A stretch of DNA of 64,000 nt, from contig NZ_SLXT01000019.1 of assembly GCF_004341395.1 (NCBI RefSeq), positions 1 through 64,000 of the forward strand, in the 5' to 3' direction. Under the pieces are notes generated by a model. That model was not told where the DNA came from, did no database searches, and saw only the letters and a list, made by a program, of their open reading frames with translations. The stretch comes from Heliophilum fasciatum (GTDB taxonomy: Bacteria; Bacillota; Desulfitobacteriia; Heliobacteriales; Heliobacteriaceae). Made by a program: the position numbers and the translations under genes. Shown here one piece after another: positions 7,253 to 18,081 of the stretch (its first letter is position 1; every line of letters begins with the position of its first letter).

Positions 7253-8572
7253 TTACCGCTGTTCCCGTTCCAGCGCCCGCCGTCCAATGTCGCGCCGGTA
7301 TTGAACCCCTTCAAAACCGGTTTGTGCGCATTGGCTATAAACCAATTCGATAGCCGATCGAATATTCCTGCTTTTTGCTGTAATTCCGAGAACTCGTCCA
7401 CCCTGGGTCACAATTTGACCATCACGAAGGGCGGTTCCGGCATGGAAGATCGCCACACCGGGCAACACCGGTGATAAACCGTGGATCACCTGGCCCTTTT
7501 CATAGTCGCCGGGATAGCCGGCCGCAGCCTGGACGACACAAACGGTCGCTTCTTCACTCCAGCGAATCGGCTGCTCATCTAAGCGCTTTTCCAGGCACGC
7601 TTGAATGATGTCCACAAGATCGGTCTCCAAGCGCATCAGTACCGGCTGCGTTTCGGGATCACCAAAGCGGGCATTGTATTCCAGCACTTTGACACCTTGC
7701 GCACCGACCATCAATCCGGCATAAAGCACGCCCACATAGGGACGTCCCTCCGCTTCCATGGCCGCAATCGTCGGACGCAGCACCTTCTCTTCCACAATCG
7801 GTGCCAGTTCTTCCGTATAAACCGGCGCCGGTGAATAGGCGCCCATGCCGCCGGTGTTTGGTCCTTGGTCATGATCAAAGATACGCTTGTGATCTTGCGC
7901 TGAGACCATCGGCACGATATGAATTCCATCACTGAAGGCAAGAATACTGACTTCTTCGCCTTCAAGGAATTCCTCGATGACCACACGGGACCCGGCGGCG
8001 CCGAAGCTGTTGCCGGATAACATGGAGCGCACTGCTTCTTTGGCTTCTTCCACGTCGGCAGCGACGATCACGCCTTTGCCGGCCGCCAGGCCGTCAGCCT
8101 TGACCACACAAGGGCATCCGCCGTCGGTCTTGGTGGCGGCCAGTTGGTCGATAAAGGCCAGGGCCGGTTCCACTTCGGTAAACACGCCGTAGGCAGCGGT
8201 GGGGATGTTGTACTTTTGCATCAAGTTCTTGGCGAAGGCTTTGCTGCCTTCGATCTCGGCCGCACCTTGGCTGGGGCCGAAGATCAGCAGATCGTGCGCT
8301 TCAAAGGTATCGACAATCCCTTTGGAAAGGGGTAATTCCGGTCCAACGACGGTGAGGTCAATCTGGTTCTTCCAAGCAAACTCCAGCAAGCCGCTCACGT
8401 CACCGGCTTCGATGGAGACACACTCGGCGATCTCAGCGATGCCGGCATTACCGGGCGCACAGAAAACCTGCGCAACGCGCGGGCTTTGTTTGATTTTCCA
8501 GACCAGCGCATGTTCGCGCCCGCCGCCGCCGACGACGAGCACCTTTAATCCTTCGGGCTTCAGCCGCTTCAC
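7253..8572 (-). CDS. purD: Phosphoribosylamine-glycine ligase
   Basis: A 439-residue GAR synthetase that joins phosphoribosylamine and glycine using ATP, step two of de novo purine synthesis. The N-terminal VLVVGGGGREHAL is the family signature. An ATP-grasp domain follows (VKADGLAAGKGVIVA; VVIEEFLEGEEVSILAF), then HKRIFDHDQGPNTGGMGAY and the C-terminal EYNARFGDPETQ. GTG start with GGAGGAA upstream, 18 bases after purH. Last enzyme gene of the purine cluster. Confidence 0.97.
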   Translation of the reverse strand: MKRLKPEGLKVLVVGGGGREHALVWKIKQSPRVAQVFCAPGNAGIAEIAECVSIEAGDVSGLLEFAWKNQIDLTVVGPELPLSKGIVDTFEAHDLLIFGPSQGAAEIEGSKAFAKNLMQKYNIPTAAYGVFTEVEPALAFIDQLAATKTDGGCPCVVKADGLAAGKGVIVAADVEEAKEAVRSMLSGNSFGAAGSRVVIEEFLEGEEVSILAFSDGIHIVPMVSAQDHKRIFDHDQGPNTGGMGAYSPAPVYTEELAPIVEEKVLRPTIAAMEAEGRPYVGVLYAGLMVGAQGVKVLEYNARFGDPETQPVLMRLETDLVDIIQACLEKRLDEQPIRWSEEATVCVVQAAAGYPGDYEKGQVIHGLSPVLPGVAIFHAGTALRDGQIVTQGGRVLGITAKSRNIRSAIELVYSQCAQTGFEGVQYRRDIGRRALEREQR

Positions 8573-8590
8573 AGGTGTTCCTCCCTCGGT

Positions 8591-10177
8591 TTAATGTTTG
8601 AAGTGGCGCATGCCGGTAAAGACCATGGCGATCCCCAGTCGGTTGGCGGCTTCGATCGATTCGGCGTCGCGGATCGATCCGCCGGGCTGAATGATCGCCG
8701 TTACTCCATAGGTTGCGGCCGCTTCCACCGTATCTTTAAAGGGCAGGAACGCATCAGAAGCCAGGGCGATGCCGCTGGTAACACCGGCAGCTTTGGCTTG
8801 TTCCATGGCGATTTGCGCCGAGCCGACGCGGTTCATCTGACCGGCACCGACGCCTAAGGTGACGCCGTCTTTGCCGACGACAATCGCATTGGATTTGACA
8901 TGCTTGACCACTTTCCAGGTAAACAGCAAGTCGATCAATTCTTGTTCGGTCGGCTTGCGCTCAGTGACGCACTGCAGATCATCAGCGGTGACTGAGCCGG
9001 TATCGGCTTCTTGCAGCAAGAAACCGCCGCGGATTTTTTTGACATCATAAGTCGGGTCGGCCCCTTCCAGGGAACCCGTTTCCATGATGCGCAGGCCTTT
9101 TTTGGTTTTCAGGATCTCGATGGCCCCTTCGTCAAAAGACGGCGCGATCACGGCTTCCATGAAGGTTTTGACGATTTCATTGGCCGTATCGCTGTCAACG
9201 GGACGGTTGAAGGCGATAATGCCGCCAAAGGCCGAAAGGGGATCGGCATCATAGGCTTTTTTATAGGCTTCCACGACGGTCGCACCGATGGCGGTGCCGC
9301 AAGGGTTGTTGTGCTTGATGATGGCCGCTGCCGGCACATCAAACTCGCGGACCAGTTCCAAGGCGGCGTTTAGGTCGTAGAGATTATTAAAGGAAAGCTC
9401 TTTGCCCCACAGTTGCCGCGCGGTACCGGCGCCGGCACCTTGGTAGTTGTTTTCACGGAGAAACACTGCTTTTTGATGGGGGTTTTCGCCGTAGCGCAGC
9501 GCTTGTACTTGCGTCAGCGCACCGGGCACCACCATGTTGTTAAAAGCGGCAAAAGCGTCACTTGTTTCCACAACTTCTGTTGTATCGTCATTTTCGGCCG
9601 TTTGCTTTAACAAATAAGCGGCGATGGCGGTATCATATTCGGCGGTATGGGCAAACGCTTCTTGCGCCAGTTGCCGGCGCAGATCGGCGGGGACACTGCC
9701 ATGGGTGCGCAGCGCTTCCAAGACGGTGTTGTAGTGGGCCGGGTTAACGACGATCGTCACGGCAGCATGGTTTTTGGCCGACGCGCGCACCATGGCGGGG
9801 CCGCCGATGTCGATGTTTTCGATCGCTTCTTCCAGGGTCACACCGGGTTTAGCGACGGTTTGACGGAAGGGATAAAGGTTGACGGCCACGACGTCGATGG
9901 GCACAATGGCATTTTCGTCAAGCTGGCGTAGGTGATCTTCCGTACGCCGGGCCAAGATGCCGCCATGTACTTTCGGATGCAGCGTTTTCACGCGCCCGTC
10001 GAGGATTTCGGGAAAACCGGTCACTTCCGTTACATAGGTGGCCGGTACACCGGCGGCGCGGATCGTTTTAAAGGTACCGCCTGTCGAGACGATCTCAAAA
10101 CCAAGTTCAACTAAACCTTGGGCAAATTCAACTACACCTTGTTTGTCAGACACACTGATCAACGCGCGTCGTTTCAT
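8591..10177 (-). CDS. purH: Bifunctional AICAR formyltransferase/IMP cyclohydrolase
   Basis: A 528-residue PurH catalysing the last two steps to IMP. The N-terminal cyclohydrolase (MGS-like) domain has SVSDKQG and STGGT, then [20 protein letters not shown]. The C-terminal transformylase carries [11 protein letters not shown], the catalytic IKHNNPCG motif and the final PGGSIRD. Length is normal. The ATG at 10177 is preceded by GGAGGGCGACC. The gap to purN is 96 bases with no obvious terminator, so it probably belongs to the same transcript. Confidence 0.97.
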
Positions 10178-10273
10178 CGGTCGCCCTCCTTTATCGGTTC
10201 GCCTACAATTTATTTTATTCTAGGGTTCAAGAATGTTCAGGTTGCTCAAGACAACCATCCTGAAGCATCTTCG

Positions 10274-10888
10274 TTACTGGGCAGGCTGGATCTCTACACG
10301 CCGCCCGGTGACGGTCACCCGCCCCTGGGCGATCAGTTGCAGCGCCTCCGGCAAGATGCGGTGCTCTTCCGTTAAAATGCGCGCCGCCAGCGTCGCTTCT
10401 GTATCGCCCGGTTCTACGGGAACAACGGCCTGGCAGATGATCGGCCCCGAATCAAGGCCTTCATCGACAAAATGGACCGTGCAACCGGAATAGCGCACGC
10501 CGTAGTCCAAGGCTTGACGCTGGGCGTGCAGCCCGGGAAAAGACGGCAAGAGGGACGGGTGAATGTTCAACACCCGTCCTGCAAAGGCATTAATTAAACT
10601 GGCCGTCACGATGCGCATATAGCCAGCCAGCAACAGTGCTTCTGCACCGGCTTGCCGCAATTGCGCTGCCGCCGCCCGGTCATAGTCTTCGCGCGTGCCA
10701 TAGGCCTTGGGATCAAGAAATACGGCCGGAATGCCGCGCTCCTTGGCTCGGGTCAAGGCATAGGCATCGGCTTTGTTGGCCAGAACCATGACCACGTGGG
10801 CATCAAGGCGACCGGCGTCGATCGCCTCGATGACCGCCTGTAAATTGGAGCCCCGGCCGGACGCCATCACTGCCAATTGGAGCGTCAT
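10274..10888 (-). CDS. purN: Phosphoribosylglycinamide formyltransferase
   Basis: A 204-residue folate-dependent GAR transformylase. It begins with LAVMASGRGSNLQAVIEAI (phosphate-binding GSN) and has the catalytic region VLNIHPSLLPSFPGLHAQ, with Asn and His, and SGCTVHFVDEGLDSGPI with the catalytic Asp. Its ATG overlaps the purM stop by one base (TGATG), so translation is coupled to purM. Confidence 0.97.
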   Translation of the reverse strand: MTLQLAVMASGRGSNLQAVIEAIDAGRLDAHVVMVLANKADAYALTRAKERGIPAVFLDPKAYGTREDYDRAAAAQLRQAGAEALLLAGYMRIVTASLINAFAGRVLNIHPSLLPSFPGLHAQRQALDYGVRYSGCTVHFVDEGLDSGPIICQAVVPVEPGDTEATLAARILTEEHRILPEALQLIAQGRVTVTGRRVEIQPAQ

Positions 10889-11994
10889 CAGGTGCCCTCC
10901 GCCTTGGTCCAGGGCAGCGCTCCGGTATAGGTTACCGATGCCGGCATGGCGCAGCCTTCACCGTGGACGATGATCTGGCCGATCCGGTAGTTCGCTTCAC
11001 CCATTTCGGTGAGGTAGGCCATGGCTGCTTCGGCATCTTCCGGTGCCACGACAACGACCATACCGATGCCGCAGTTAAAGGTACGTAGCATTTCGTCTTC
11101 AGCCACAGCGCCCAAACGCTGCATCAAGGAAAAGACCGGCGGAATCGGCCAGGAGCCTGGTTCGATTTGCGCTTGGAAGCCTTTGGGCAGGACGCGGGGC
11201 ACATTTTCGGTGATGCCGCCGCCGGTGATATGGGCCATGCCTTTGACGTTGATTTTTTCCATCAACTTCAGCAGCGGTTTTACATAGATGCGGGTCGGCA
11301 CGAGCATTTCTTCGCCGACCGTATGGCCCAGCTCGTCCAGATGGGTATCAATGCTGTACCCGGCATGTTCGAGCAAAATCTTACGGGCCAGGGAGTAGCC
11401 GTTGCTGTGTAATCCCGCCGACGGCAGACCGATCAGCACATCACCGGGAATAATCGTGGAGCCGTCAATGATTTTTTTGCGGTCGACGATGCCGACGGCA
11501 AAGCCGGCCATGTCGTAATCTTCTTCGGCATAAAAGCCGGGCATTTCGGCGGTCTCGCCGCCGATCAGGGCGCAGCCGGCTTGGCGGCAGCCGTCCGCAA
11601 CGCCACCGACGATGGTGGCGACTTTTTCCGGGCTTAACTTGCCGACGGCGACATAGTCCAGGAAAAACAGCGGCTCGGCACCTTGCACCAAGATATCGTT
11701 GACACACATGGCTACACAGTCGATGCCGATGGTGTCATGTTTGTCCATGAGCATGGCGACGCGCAATTTGGTGCCGACACCGTCAGTGCCGGAAACGAGC
11801 ACCGGCTGTTCATACTTATCACGATCCAGGGCAAAAAGACCGCCAAATCCGCCGATATCGGTCAGGACACCAGGGCGCAAGGTACTTTTTACGTGCGATT
11901 TAAACAAGTCGACGGCGCGGTTGCCGGCGGCAATATCAACGCCGGCTGCGGCGTAACTGAGGCCCTCCGCCGGGGACGGAGTGGTTGTACTCAT
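10888..11994 (-). CDS. purM: Phosphoribosylformylglycinamidine cyclo-ligase
   Basis: A 368-residue AIR synthetase. Family motifs include [60 protein letters not shown] and [15 protein letters not shown]. It closes the imidazole ring of AIR using ATP. A good AGGGGG lies seven to eight bases ahead of the ATG. A 111-base spacer with no clear gene separates it from purF. Confidence 0.97.
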
Positions 11995-12105
11995 AAAGGT
12001 GCCCCCTCTGCTTCCGGGGCATGCAGGCGATTCCCTGCCCTTCCGGAAGTCTTGTGGTTATGTGCTTTTACATGCTGGGTATCACAAAGGTACTGCCGAT
12101 CGCCC

Positions 12106-13578
12106 TTAGCAACCGCAGCCTTCCATCGTGAATTTATCCACACCCTGCGGTACGTCGATGGGATAGTTGCCGCTAAAGCAAGCGGTGCAGTAACTTTCAG
12201 CGGGAAGATCGGCACGCTGATCGACCATGGTGTTCAACAAGCCCTCTTCGGACAGATAGTAGAGGCTGTCGGCGCCGATGGCCTGGCGGATCTCTTCAAT
12301 GGTCTTTGTCGCGGCGATCAACTCTTTACGTACCGATGTATCGATCCCATAGTAGCAGGGATGGGTGATCGGCGGCGACGAGATGAGCATGTGCACTTCC
12401 TTGGCGCCAGCTTGACGCAGGAGTTGTACGATCTTGCCGCTGGTCGTTCCACGGACGATGGAATCATCGATCAAGATGACCCGCTTGCCTTCAACGGCTT
12501 TGACGATTGGGTTGAGTTTTAACCGTACCGCTTGGCTACGCATCTCTTGCGACGGCTGGATGAAGGTCCGGCCAATGTAGCGGTTTTTCATCAATCCTTC
12601 TTCAAAGGGGATGCCCGATTCGGTGGCGTAGCCAATGGCGGCGGCCGTACCGGAATCAGGTACGCTGATTACCACATCGGCGTCGATGGGGCATTCGCGA
12701 GCCAACTGCCGTCCCATGGCGCGACGCGCCCGGTTCACCGAGATGCCGTCGATGTTCGAGTCGGGTCGGGCAAAGTAGATGTATTCAAAGATGCACATGG
12801 CCCGCGGCGCGCGGATCATCGATTTGATCGATGTGAGGCCGCGCTTGTCAGCGACGACGATCTCGCCCGGTTCCACGTCGCGGACAAATTCGGCACCGAG
12901 CGTATCGAGGGCGCACGATTCGGACGCGAAGATATAGGCATCACCGAGGCGGCCGATACACAGCGGCCGCACACCGTGCGGGTCGCGCACACCCAGCAAG
13001 CGGTCTTCCGTCATGACCAACATCGAGTAGGAACCTTTGATGTCGATCATCGTCTTCATCAAGCCTTCTTCGATCGATGACTGGTTATATCGGGCCAGTA
13101 AGTTGACGATCACTTCGGTATCGGTGGTGGTCTGAAAAACAGCGCCGGTCACGGCCAAGTTATGGCGCTGTTCAGTTGCGTTGGTCAAGTTGCCGTTATG
13201 AGCCACGGCCATCATGCCTTTTAAGTAGCGAAAAACCAGGGGCTGGGCATTGGCCAGCAAACTGGAGCCGGTCGTCGAATAGCGTACATGGCCGATGGCT
13301 ACTTGTCCGGCCATTTCCCGCAATTTATGCTCATTAAACGCTTCGGTCACCAGGCCCATGCCTTTGTTAAACTGGATGTCTTCGCCGTTGCCGATCGCGA
13401 TACCGGCGCTTTCTTGCCCACGGTGCTGCAAGGCATGCAAACCAAAATAAGTCAATCGTGCTACGTCTTTGCCGGGACCATAGATCCCGATGACGCCGCA
13501 CTCTTCCTCCATCTTATCCCAGGGCATCCCATGGCTGATTTCGTTCGCCATCGAAGGGCCTCCCGCCAGATTTTTCAT
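12106..13578 (-). CDS. purF: Amidophosphoribosyltransferase
   Basis: A glutamine PRPP amidotransferase of 490 residues from the chosen start. It makes phosphoribosylamine from PRPP, the committed step of the pathway. The mature nucleophile Cys is in EEECGVIGIYG after a short propeptide. The PRPP loop is VILIDDSIVRGTTSGKIV. Cysteines near the end (YCTACFSGNYP) and one after PRAM are placed like the 4Fe-4S ligands of the Bacillus-type enzyme. I chose the ATG at 13578 because GAGGAG sits seven bases upstream and 10 bases after the purC stop. A second ATG 27 bases inside, with GGGAGG, is possible. purS, purQ and purL, often next to purF, are absent. Confidence 0.96.
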   Translation of the reverse strand: MKNLAGGPSMANEISHGMPWDKMEEECGVIGIYGPGKDVARLTYFGLHALQHRGQESAGIAIGNGEDIQFNKGMGLVTEAFNEHKLREMAGQVAIGHVRYSTTGSSLLANAQPLVFRYLKGMMAVAHNGNLTNATEQRHNLAVTGAVFQTTTDTEVIVNLLARYNQSSIEEGLMKTMIDIKGSYSMLVMTEDRLLGVRDPHGVRPLCIGRLGDAYIFASESCALDTLGAEFVRDVEPGEIVVADKRGLTSIKSMIRAPRAMCIFEYIYFARPDSNIDGISVNRARRAMGRQLARECPIDADVVISVPDSGTAAAIGYATESGIPFEEGLMKNRYIGRTFIQPSQEMRSQAVRLKLNPIVKAVEGKRVILIDDSIVRGTTSGKIVQLLRQAGAKEVHMLISSPPITHPCYYGIDTSVRKELIAATKTIEEIRQAIGADSLYYLSEEGLLNTMVDQRADLPAESYCTACFSGNYPIDVPQGVDKFTMEGCGC

Positions 13579-13588
13579 CGTTATCTCC

Positions 13589-14314
13589 TCAGTTCGCCAG
13601 CTTGCTCTCCAGGCGGCGCAGGATCTCTTGATAGGCTTCTTCCAGGCCACCCATGTCGCGGCGGAAGCGGTCTTTGTCCAGTTTTTCTTTGGTCTCGGAG
13701 TCCCAGAAACGGCAGGTATCCGGGGAGATTTCGTCGCCGAGGATCACTGTATCGCCATGAACACCGAATTCCAGTTTAAAGTCGACCAGGTCAATGCCCA
13801 GATCGGCCATGAAGGTTTTGAGGATGTCATTGACGCGCAGCGCGATCGAAGCGATGGTGTCCATCTGCTCCGGTGTCGCCAAATCGAGGGCAGCAATGTG
13901 GTAGTCGTTGATCAGTGGATCGCCCAGTTCATCATCTTTGTAGTAGAATTCGAGGACCGGCTTGGCCAGCACCGTGCCTTCAGGGCGGCCGACCCGCTTG
14001 GCCAGCGAACCGGCTACGATGTTACGGGCAACCACTTCCACAGGAATGATGCGCAGCGATTTGACGAGCATTTCCCGGTCGCTCAGTTGCTCCACAAAGT
14101 GGGTCGGAATGCCTTGCTTTTCCAGATACTGAAAGAATAAGGCCGAAATGCGGTTATTCAGGATGCCTTTGTTGTCAATTTCTGCTTTTTTAACACCGTT
14201 GAACGCAGTGGCCGAGTCCTTATAGGCGACCCAATAAATGTTCGGATCGCTGGTGGCGTAGATTTTCTTGGCTTTGCCTTCGTAAAGCTGCTCTAATTTT
14301 TCTACCGATGCCAT
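13589..14314 (-). CDS. purC: SAICAR synthetase
   Basis: A 241-residue phosphoribosylaminoimidazole-succinocarboxamide synthase, joining CAIR and aspartate. Recognised by [25 protein letters not shown], the signature [12 protein letters not shown] and the C-terminal [14 protein letters not shown]. The ATG follows AAAGGAGGAGC. It lies 76 bases after purB and 10 bases before purF on the same strand. Confidence 0.97.
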
Positions 14315-14390: not shown

Positions 14391-15683
14391 TTACAGTCCA
14401 ACCCGTTTGAACAAGGTATCGACGTGTTTGATGTGATAGTCGTAATCAAAAAGGCCTTCGACTTCGTCGACGCTGAGTTTGTCCATAATGTCGGCGTCGC
14501 CTTTAACCAGTTCTTTGAAGGGCCGTTTGACTTCCCAGGCTTTGAGGGCGTTCCGTTGTACCAGATGGTAGGCCGTTTCTCGCAGTACGCCTTTGTCGAC
14601 CAGGGCGAGCATGACTCGTTGGCTGTTGACGAGGCCCAGCGTTTTGTCCAAGTTGGCTTGCATGGCTTCAGGGAAGACTTGCAGGTTGGCCACAATTTCG
14701 ATCATCTTGGCCAGCATGTAGTCAAGGAGGATCGTCGAATCGGGAATGATCACGCGCTCCACCGAGGAATGGGTAATATCGCGCTCATGCCACAGGGCGA
14801 CGTTTTCCATAGCCGCCAGGGCGTTGCCGCGCAGGACCCGCGAAAGACCAGCCACCCGTTCCGACGTGATCGGGTTTTTCTTGTGGGGCATGGCCGAAGA
14901 ACCTTTTTGGCCTTTGGAAAAAGCTTCTTCCACTTCGTGAATGTCGGTACGCTGCAAGTTGCGCAGTTCCGTTGCGAATTTTTCTAAGGAAGAGCCGATC
15001 ACGGCGATGGTGGCCATGTATTCGGCATGGCGATCACGCTGGATCACTTGGGTGGAGATCGGCGCCGGCTTGAGGCCCAGGCGTTGGCAAACGAATTCTT
15101 CGACCGAAGGATCGATCTGCGCAAAGGTACCGACAGCACCGGAGATGGCACCGACGCTGATGATGTCGTTGGCAGCGTTCATCCGTTTGATGCAACGGCC
15201 CACTTCGTCATACCACAGGGCCAACTTCAGGCCGAAGGTGACCGGCTCGGCATGGATACCGTGGGTCCGGCCGACCATGACGGTGTACTTGTGCTCTTTG
15301 GCACGCTCAGCGATGACTTCACGCAGTTTCTTGAGCTTTTGCACGAGAATCGCGCCGGCTTCTTTCATTTGAAGTGACAGGGCTGTGTCCAGCACGTCCG
15401 ACGAGGTCATACCCATGTGCACATATTTGGACTCTTCGCCGATGTACTCAGCGACGCAAGTCAAAAAGGCCAGGACGTCATGTTTGGTGATCTCTTCGAT
15501 TTCATTGATGCGGTCAACGTTGAAGGCCGCTTTTTCACGGATCACTTCATAAGCTTCCCGGGGAATTTTGCCTTGCTCCGTCAGCGCTTCACAAGCGGCC
15601 ACTTCCACATCGAGCCACTTTTGAAAACGGTTTTCGGCCGCCCAAATGGCGCCCATCTCAGGCAGGGTATAACGATCGATCAT
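14391..15683 (-). CDS. purB: Adenylosuccinate lyase
   Basis: A 430-residue fumarase/aspartase family lyase acting on both SAICAR and adenylosuccinate. It has MTSSDVLDT, the catalytic-His segment GRTHGIHAEPVTFG and the family signature GSSAMPHKKNP. The ATG is preceded by GTAGGAGGATG. It is the first gene downstream of the PRPP riboswitch terminator (15752-15812), so its transcription and that of the following pur genes should depend on read-through at that site. Confidence 0.97.
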   Translation of the reverse strand: MIDRYTLPEMGAIWAAENRFQKWLDVEVAACEALTEQGKIPREAYEVIREKAAFNVDRINEIEEITKHDVLAFLTCVAEYIGEESKYVHMGMTSSDVLDTALSLQMKEAGAILVQKLKKLREVIAERAKEHKYTVMVGRTHGIHAEPVTFGLKLALWYDEVGRCIKRMNAANDIISVGAISGAVGTFAQIDPSVEEFVCQRLGLKPAPISTQVIQRDRHAEYMATIAVIGSSLEKFATELRNLQRTDIHEVEEAFSKGQKGSSAMPHKKNPITSERVAGLSRVLRGNALAAMENVALWHERDITHSSVERVIIPDSTILLDYMLAKMIEIVANLQVFPEAMQANLDKTLGLVNSQRVMLALVDKGVLRETAYHLVQRNALKAWEVKRPFKELVKGDADIMDKLSVDEVEGLFDYDYHIKHVDTLFKRVGL

Positions 15684-15751: not shown

Positions 15752-15812
15752 AAAAAACAAAAGCCGAGACGGATAGATCCAAAACCAAACTCTGGAACCT
15801 ATCCGCCTGGGC
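15752..15812 (-). terminator. Riboswitch expression platform: intrinsic terminator before purB
   Basis: Minus strand 5' arm GCCCAGGCGGATAG (15799-15812), 3' arm CTATCCGTCTCGGC (15763-15776) and U-rich tail TTTTGTTTTTT (15752-15762). The 5' arm is also the conserved 3' half of the aptamer, so aptamer and terminator are mutually exclusive. This predicts transcription ON with ligand. Confidence 0.85.
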
Positions 15813-15920
15813 TTTTTCCCCTCCGGTGTAAAAGACGTGTTCGACGTTCGGTCGCCGTTGACTTCTTTTTGCAGCGCTCGGTCCAAACCGGTCTCCCGTG
15901 GAACCCTGAGCTGCTCTTCC
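15794..15920 (-). promoter_or_regulatory. PRPP riboswitch (ykkC subtype 2b)
   Basis: The minus-strand RNA starts GGAAGAGCAGCTCAGGG and continues with GGTTCC, then TTTGGACCGAGCG, then ACACCGGAGGGG and AAAAGCCCAGGCGGATAGG, ending GGTTCC. These are the ykkC-family core elements in order: CUAGGGUUCC-like, GG(U)CCGAG, ACAC...GGG...AAAAGCCC and GG(A/C)GGAUAGG. 5' GGAA and 3' UUCC close P1. The GGCGGAUAGG ending and the purine gene context point to the PRPP subclass rather than guanidine or ppGpp. It begins 17 bases after the purE stop. Known PRPP switches turn purine synthesis on when PRPP is abundant. No guanine aptamer is visible in tandem. Confidence 0.85.
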
Positions 15921-15936: not shown

Positions 15937-16446
15937 TTAAAAAACAGGCCGTGGTTCGCCTAAAAGCGCATCTTTGGCCATGACTTGCTCGGCCATTTTT
16001 TGTTTGTAGGCAGCAAATTGTGCGCGCAGTTCCGGGTATTTACCGCCCAGGATCTGCACGGCCAGTAAACCGGCATTCTTCGCACCATTGACAGCAACGG
16101 TCGCCACCGGTACACCGGGCGGCATCTGGGCAATCGCCAGGAGGCTGTCCCAGCCTTGCAACGCGCCCGATTGCAGCGGCACACCAATCACCGGCAAGGT
16201 GGTAAAGGCTGCTATCACACCGGGCAGATGGGCCGCGAGACCGGCACCGGCAATGATCACTTCCAAGCCACGGGCTTCTGCCGTCTCGGCATAGCGGGCA
16301 GCGCGCTCGGGCGTACGGTGCGCCGAGCAGACGATCATTTCAGATACGATACCAAATTCTTTGAGTGCATTCACAGCTTCTTGCATGACTTTCAAGTCTG
16401 AGTCACTGCCCATGACAATGCCGACTTTTGGCGTATCTACACCCAC
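15937..16446 (-). CDS. purE: 5-(carboxyamino)imidazole ribonucleotide mutase
   Basis: A 169-residue PurE with VGIVMGSDSDLKVMQEA, the catalytic SAHRTPERA and IAGAGLAAHLPGV, and VPLQSGALQGWDSLLAIAQ. These are class I features, and class I normally works with PurK. No purK is in the window, so it must be elsewhere or be dispensable. GTG start with AGGAGTG upstream. It is the first pur gene and is separated from purB by the PRPP riboswitch, so it escapes that control. Confidence 0.95.
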   Translation of the reverse strand: MGVDTPKVGIVMGSDSDLKVMQEAVNALKEFGIVSEMIVCSAHRTPERAARYAETAEARGLEVIIAGAGLAAHLPGVIAAFTTLPVIGVPLQSGALQGWDSLLAIAQMPPGVPVATVAVNGAKNAGLLAVQILGGKYPELRAQFAAYKQKMAEQVMAKDALLGEPRPVF

Positions 16447-16505
16447 GCGACGATCACTCCTGCTACTTTTCTAGGTATTCGCTTATATTAAACCACTTTT
16501 TGAGG

Positions 16506-16538
16506 AAAAACGCCACTGAAAGCTAGCGCTTAGTGGCG
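16506..16538 (-). terminator. Intrinsic terminator after guaA
   Basis: Minus strand CGCCACT...AGTGGCG stem followed by TTTTT. It begins at the guaA stop and lies ahead of purE. Confidence 0.85.
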
Positions 16539-16539
16539 A

Positions 16540-18081
16540 CTATTCCCACTCGATCGTGCCGGGCGGCTTGGACGTCACATCATAAACAACCCGGTTGATC
16601 CCGCGCACTTCATTGACGATGCGCGACGAGATCGATTCGATCAAATCATAAGGCAGTCGTGCCCAGTCGGCCGTCATGGCATCATCGGAGGTCACAGCGC
16701 GCAGCACTGCCGGAAAAGCATAGGTGCGCTCATCACCCATGACACCGACACTGCGGACGTTCGTCGGCAACACGACGAAGGATTGCCAAATCTGACGATA
16801 GAGGCCCGATTTTTTGATCTCTTGAAACACAATATCATCGGCATGACGCAGAATATCGAGGTTTTCCTTCGTCACCTCGCCAAGGATGCGGATCGCCAGA
16901 CCCGGTCCGGGGAAAGGCTGACGCCAGACGATATCTTCCGGCAAGCCCAATTGCAGACCGGCTTCGCGCACTTCATCTTTGAACAAGGTGCGCAGCGGCT
17001 CGATCAGTTGAAACTTCATGTCTTCCGGCAACCCGCCCACGTTGTGATGCGACTTGATCACCGCCGCCGTCGACGTGCCGCTTTCGACGACGTCGGGATA
17101 AAGCGTGCCCTGTACCAGGAAGTCCACTTGGCCGATCTTGGCCGCTTCCGCTTCAAAGACGCGAATAAATTCCGTGCCGATGATCTTGCGCTTCGTTTCC
17201 GGATCGGTCACACCGGCCAACTTGCCGAGAAACTGCTCCGAGGCATCGACGGCGATGAGGTTCATGCCCAGCTCTTCCCGGAAGGTCTTGACGATGCGCG
17301 CTGATTCATTGAGGCGCATAAAACCATGATCCACATAAACGCAAGTCAAGCGATCGCCGACAGCGCGGTGCACCATGAGCGCCGCCACCGACGAATCCAC
17401 GCCGCCCGAAAGGGCGCAAAGCACATGACCGTCACCGGCTTGTTCCCGAATGGCCGCTACTTGCTCTTCCACAAAGTTGGCCATCGTCCATTCGCCGGTG
17501 CAGCCGCAGATGTCATAGAGGAAACGCTTGAGCATCTCCAGGCCTTGCGGCGTATGGCGCACTTCCGGATGGAACTGCACGGCATAAAAACGGCGTTCTT
17601 TATTACCCATGGCCGCTACCGGTGCATGGGCCGTTTTGCCGATAACTTCAAATCCGGCCGGCAGAGCTGCCACTTTGTCGCCGTGGCTCATCCAGCACTG
17701 CACATCGCCGCTAAGTCCGATAAAAGGGCCTTCCGAAGCCAGTACCGCGAGGTCCGATTTACCGTATTCACGCTGCTCTGCACCAATGACGGTGCCACCC
17801 AATTGATGGGCCATCAATTGCATGCCGTAGCAGATCCCGAAGATGGGAATCCCTAACTCATAGATCGCCGGATCAACTTGCGGTGCTTTGTCCGCATAGA
17901 CGCTGGATGGCCCGCCGGTAAAAATGATCCCCTTGGGATTCATTTGTTTGATCGCTTCGATGGAGATGGAAAATGGGTGCATTTCACAATATACGTGCAG
18001 TTCCCGCACCCGGCGAGCGATCAATTGATTATATTGACCACCAAAATCAAGGACTAAAATCGTTTCATGTGCTTGTGCCAA
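16540..18081 (-). CDS. guaA: GMP synthase (glutamine-hydrolysing)
   Basis: Converts XMP to GMP. The N-terminal class I amidotransferase domain has [20 protein letters not shown] and the nucleophile [16 protein letters not shown]. The ATP pyrophosphatase domain has [14 protein letters not shown] (about residue 230). The C-terminal dimerisation domain ends [10 protein letters not shown], the typical GuaA end. I favour the TTG at 18081 because AGAGGGG lies eight bases ahead. An ATG at 18099 is in frame but has no ribosome binding site. It has its own terminator, so it is a unit separate from purE. Confidence 0.96.

Follow-up and report, generated by a model that had tools for sequence, protein, structure and literature searches.

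A predicted singlet PRPP riboswitch between purE and purB of Heliophilum fasciatum

An RNA element inside the purine operon

The window analyzed here is a 64-kb stretch of Heliophilum fasciatum DNA containing the gene order hpt-guaA-purE-purB-purC-purF-purM-purN-purH-purD. A predicted PRPP (ykkC subtype 2b) element and its terminator occupy minus-strand positions 15920 to 15752, between purE and purB (Table 1). Curated NCBIfam models confirm the identities that an earlier sequence-only reading of this DNA had assigned to purE and the seven genes from purB to purD, and they likewise confirm guaA and hpt upstream. The same reading had placed the element 17 nt after the purE stop codon; it does adjoin purE, but the distance from the end of the stop (15937) to the GGAA that opens the aptamer (15920) is 16 nt.

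Table 1 Features of the purE-purB region, in window coordinates
Feature	Position	Strand	Evidence
purE, upstream of the switch	15937..16446	-	TIGR01162, 207.5 bits (cut-off 149.6)
purB, first downstream gene; start 68 nt past the U tract	14391..15683	-	TIGR00928, 568 bits
purC, purF, purM, purN, purH, purD, downstream	7253..14314	-	NCBIfam equivalogs
Terminator-like hairpin between guaA and purE	16505..16540	-	-16.7 kcal/mol, z -2.92, then GUUUUU
Predicted PRPP (ykkC subtype 2b) aptamer; helices P0, P1, P1a/b, P2, P3	15794..15920	-	R1, RF00442 and heliobacterial pairing
P0 5' strand GGAA, opens the aptamer	15917..15920	-	Pairs with 15797-15794
P0 3' strand UUCC, closes the aptamer	15794..15797	-	Within the terminator 5' arm
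P3, GGG 15821-15819 with CCC 15811-15809	15809..15821	-	3' strand within the terminator 5' arm
C equivalent to C49	15876..15876	-	Alignment with guanidine-I copies L003, L092-L103; rule from PMC6031431
G equivalent to G96	15807..15807	-	Alignments A1 (G invariant) and A4 (A invariant); rule from PMC6031431
Intrinsic terminator hairpin; 5' arm 15815-15790, 3' arm 15784-15760	15760..15815	-	Fold -31.5 to -32.1 kcal/mol
U6 tract of the terminator	15752..15757	-	Sequence

The aptamer was located with R1, a PRPP covariance model built from non-heliobacterial loci. Its sole match in the 64 kb (15922-15793; 75.5 bits, E 3.1e-18) spans the full length of the model, positions 1-113 of 113, with the P1, P2 and P3 core in the expected order. 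The core is also matched by the Rfam Guanidine-I model (RF00442), and the claim that the ykkC-family core is present in the right order is thus borne out. The Rfam match reaches 41.6 bits (E 3.3e-6 in the 451 nt searched), below the cut-off of 63. Because this sub-threshold match is all that Rfam detects of the element, a default scan of the window at the gathering threshold returns no match there. Guanidine-I matches below the cut-off can therefore be PRPP switches that automatic annotation misses or misnames. The GGAA/UUCC pairing of P0 is retained together with A103, G104 and G105 (AGG), and the region folds with a z-score of -3.76, none of 200 shuffled sequences folding as well. Other Rfam matches near the element (trpB, miRNA and STnc240) had low scores, overlapped the terminator hairpin or purE, and were rejected.

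Elsewhere in the genome, no ykkC-type RNA was detected beyond one chance-level match. Guanine-PRPP tandem riboswitches, which act as an IMPLY gate, carry the same PRPP aptamer class before pur genes. The H. fasciatum element differs from them, as the sequence-only reading had anticipated: the purine aptamer model RF00167, which recognizes the guanine partners of other PRPP aptamers in tandem arrangements (L185, L138 and L198), finds no guanine aptamer at the locus or anywhere in the genome at E<=1, and the sequence directly upstream is purE coding sequence.

The same RNA precedes purB in seven of eight other heliobacterial genomes. Across eight heliobacterial genomes the helix positions of the aptamer are 100% paired, two of the pairs having changed on both strands. 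The H. fasciatum copy is the most divergent of these RNAs, scoring 41.6 Rfam bits vs 52-54.7 in its relatives. Its U7 is replaced by A, which breaks the outer P1 pair, and its P3 loop reads GGGG instead of GGGA; each of these changes also occurs singly in other pur-linked loci.

Aptamer and terminator compete for the same strands

The 5' arm of the terminator includes the 3' strands of both P3 and P0, as had been proposed from the sequence, so that the ligand-bound aptamer and the terminator are mutually exclusive. The full RNA folds to the terminator (-69.8 kcal/mol), the RNA ending at the end of the aptamer folds into P0, P1, P2 and P3, and imposing P0 and P3 on the latter's full-length form carries a penalty of about 21 kcal/mol. 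These computed energies fit a kinetically controlled, default-OFF switch decided during transcription. The long hairpin forms in all eight heliobacterial sequences. In G001 and G002 its arms read GGUUAGG and CUAAC in place of the GGAUAGG and CUAUC of the others, a compensating change in the terminator folds.

In the mechanism that we propose, the nascent RNA would fold into the long terminator hairpin when PRPP is absent, and polymerase would halt before purB. High PRPP would stabilize P3 and P0, sequestering the CCC and UUCC strands that the terminator needs, and with these helices held by the ligand, polymerase would read through into purB-C-F-M-N-H-D. The shared arm and the mutual exclusion support the ligand-permitted read-through put forward in the sequence-only reading; PRPP binding by the H. 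fasciatum copy itself is what we infer. We are highly confident that the element acts as a singlet PRPP riboswitch, an ON switch working through transcription attenuation, with its class predicted from sequence features. Such a switch in a photosynthetic bacterium should permit transcription of the purine genes only when PRPP is plentiful.

The system is already known: the element is an orthologue of an experimentally validated riboswitch. The purB riboswitch of Heliobacterium (Heliomicrobium) modesticaldum served as the singlet model of Sherlock et al. (2018), in which PRPP raised read-through in vitro with a T50 of 40-90 uM and a lacZ fusion was turned on in Bacillus subtilis lacking purF (PMC5912903). 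Our literature searches returned no paper on the heliobacterial switch beyond that work. The H. fasciatum element and the H. modesticaldum switch (L006/L225) precede the same gene, lie in the same purE-purB position and share aptamer bases, a terminator-sharing expression platform and the lack of a guanine aptamer; the aptamers are 79% identical. Genome G004, which is presumably H. modesticaldum Ice1, likewise has its PRPP RNA between purE and purB. The two differ in spacing, the aptamer beginning 16 nt after purE in H. fasciatum vs about 48 nt beyond the purE match in H. modesticaldum, and in three features of the H. fasciatum copy: position 7 is A, the P3 loop is altered and no TATAAT follows purE. 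With the present locus, this validated riboswitch gains an orthologue whose class is clear.

Placement after purE and the start of transcription

The position after purE is not unusual, because it is conserved in heliobacteria and recurs elsewhere. Five relatives (G001-G005) share it, and outside the heliobacteria the aptamer lies directly after purE in 10 of 53 pur-linked loci, where the gap from the purE match to the aptamer ranges from 59 to 325 nt and leaves room for a promoter. In G006 and G007 (the latter apparently Heliorestis convoluta HH), which have a divergent purE, the RNA serves as a leader.

Upstream of purE, the terminator-like hairpin after guaA (GUCGCCACU...AGUGGCG, then UUUUU) hints that a new transcription unit begins at purE. 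A second hairpin, at the purE 3' end (15962-15945), was not counted as a terminator: its fold is weak (-6.8 kcal/mol, z -0.44), and its U run consists of the Val-Phe-stop codons. The simplest reading of this arrangement is read-through from purE to purB with the gate between them. The sequence-only reading held that purE is controlled apart from the other seven enzymes. This stands insofar as purE lies upstream of the switch; that purE would thereby escape PRPP control is a further step, and it depends on where transcription starts.

The main competitor to read-through from purE, to which we give somewhat less than an even chance, is that purB has a transcript of its own, made from a promoter at the end of purE, and that the riboswitch is the 5' leader of this transcript and does not gate read-through from purE. 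A TATAAT lies just past the purE stop, about 35 nt before the aptamer, in three Heliomicrobium-type relatives (L006, L010 and L011), where it is a candidate internal promoter, and two other relatives have TAAAAT at the equivalent spot. The construct of Sherlock et al. began near the aptamer, at a start site predicted to be the natural one (PMC5912903), and where purE is divergent, in G006 and G007, the RNA must be a leader. Against a separate purB transcript, the TATAAT is not conserved and is absent from H. fasciatum, whose purE stop is only 16 nt from the aptamer. The sequence-only reading had called for a search for an internal start; a promoter scan of the window finds no promoter-like site between purE and the aptamer.

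The post-purE placement offers a simple test of whether a single riboswitch divides the operon into a part blind to PRPP and a part gated by it. In the Heliobacteriaceae MAG STF2_203 (G008:C52; L012:2862-2945), the 5' two thirds of the aptamer are missing between purE and purB. The gap opens at the GGAGG of P3 and retains P3, CCCAGGCGGACAGGUUCC, the P0 3' strand, the hairpin (-33.3 kcal/mol, z -4.5) and UUUUUU; none of the models finds an aptamer anywhere in that genome. The sensor may have been lost naturally, or the assembly of this single MAG may be in error. We consider it unlikely, though worth stating, that the gate sits within one purE-purB-purD transcript, with purE independent of PRPP and the seven others gated, and that the sensor was in addition lost from G008 while the terminator was kept. 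Were this so, the natural aptamer deletion would lock the operon down unless another start site rescued it, and the terminator-only relative would be a possible natural loss-of-sensor case.

Two further observations concern other purine genes of H. fasciatum. The purL gene lies on another contig (G000:C6:79642-81543; L243) as one large open frame of 1301 aa; since no other PRPP-type RNA occurs in the genome, the purL step falls outside riboswitch control. At 18882-18779 (minus strand), before the likely hpt start, the window contains a strong promoter-like site, TTGACG-17-TATAAT with a TG, and after it a GGCCGGUA...UACCGGCC hairpin that has a U-rich tail. An Rfam search of this leader gave no match, and the hairpin is possibly a leader attenuator.

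Discrimination among the ykkC classes

The ykkC classes can be told apart at two positions: position 49 is A in guanidine-I aptamers and a pyrimidine in PRPP and ppGpp aptamers, and position 96 is G in PRPP aptamers and a non-G in ppGpp aptamers (PMC6031431). We mapped both through a large set of aptamer copies from related genomes. All eight heliobacterial purB copies, that of H. fasciatum included, have C49 and G96. Outside the heliobacteria, position 96 is G in 52 of the 53 pur-linked loci, the last being unreadable by the pattern, whereas the copies before ilvE in related genomes have A. The C at position 49 excludes guanidine-I, and the G at position 96 excludes the ppGpp class.

For a comparison over the whole aptamer, class models were trained by gene context with the heliobacteria left out. 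The first ppGpp model, R2, scores the element at 66.5 bits but is mis-structured, having lost P0 and P3 through a misaligned second subgroup; R3 (ilvE type), built with a given structure, replaced it and scores 54.8 bits, 20.7 below R1. The other heliobacterial copies behave alike (78-84 bits with the PRPP model vs 57-61 with the ppGpp model), and held-out ppGpp copies reverse the preference (L153, for example, 77.0 vs 123.1), except L191, which precedes ilvE, and L210, both of which favor PRPP by 8 bits; this test uses the whole sequence, though it is not independent of bases 49 and 96.

Together with R1's 75.5 bits, the two bases support assignment of the element to the PRPP class (ykkC subtype 2b), as the sequence-only reading had predicted, and neither ppGpp model nor Guanidine-I (41.6 bits) scores it better. 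It is highly improbable that the element is instead a ppGpp (subtype 2a) or guanidine-I aptamer. The ykkC scaffold is common to all classes, R2 comes fairly close for a model mis-structured at P0 and P3, and the ppGpp riboswitch shares the ON logic. These likenesses are outweighed by C49 and G96, by the deficit of the better-structured R3, and by a Guanidine-I score beneath the cut-off where the true copies of two relatives reach 72-90.5 Rfam bits. The gene context agrees: in related genomes, what follows a ppGpp-type copy is ilvE, ilvD or a gene resembling 2-isopropylmalate/citramalate synthase rather than a pur gene. The possibility that a plain terminator separates purE and purB and resembles an aptamer by chance is negligible: a terminator by itself would look identical, and one related MAG has only that, but the aptamer match has an E-value of 3.1e-18, every helix position is paired in eight genomes with some two-sided changes, and the ligand-contact bases are invariant.

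Genuine guanidine-I riboswitches also occur in two heliobacteria (L003 in G005 and L004 in G003), and both have a similar terminator platform.
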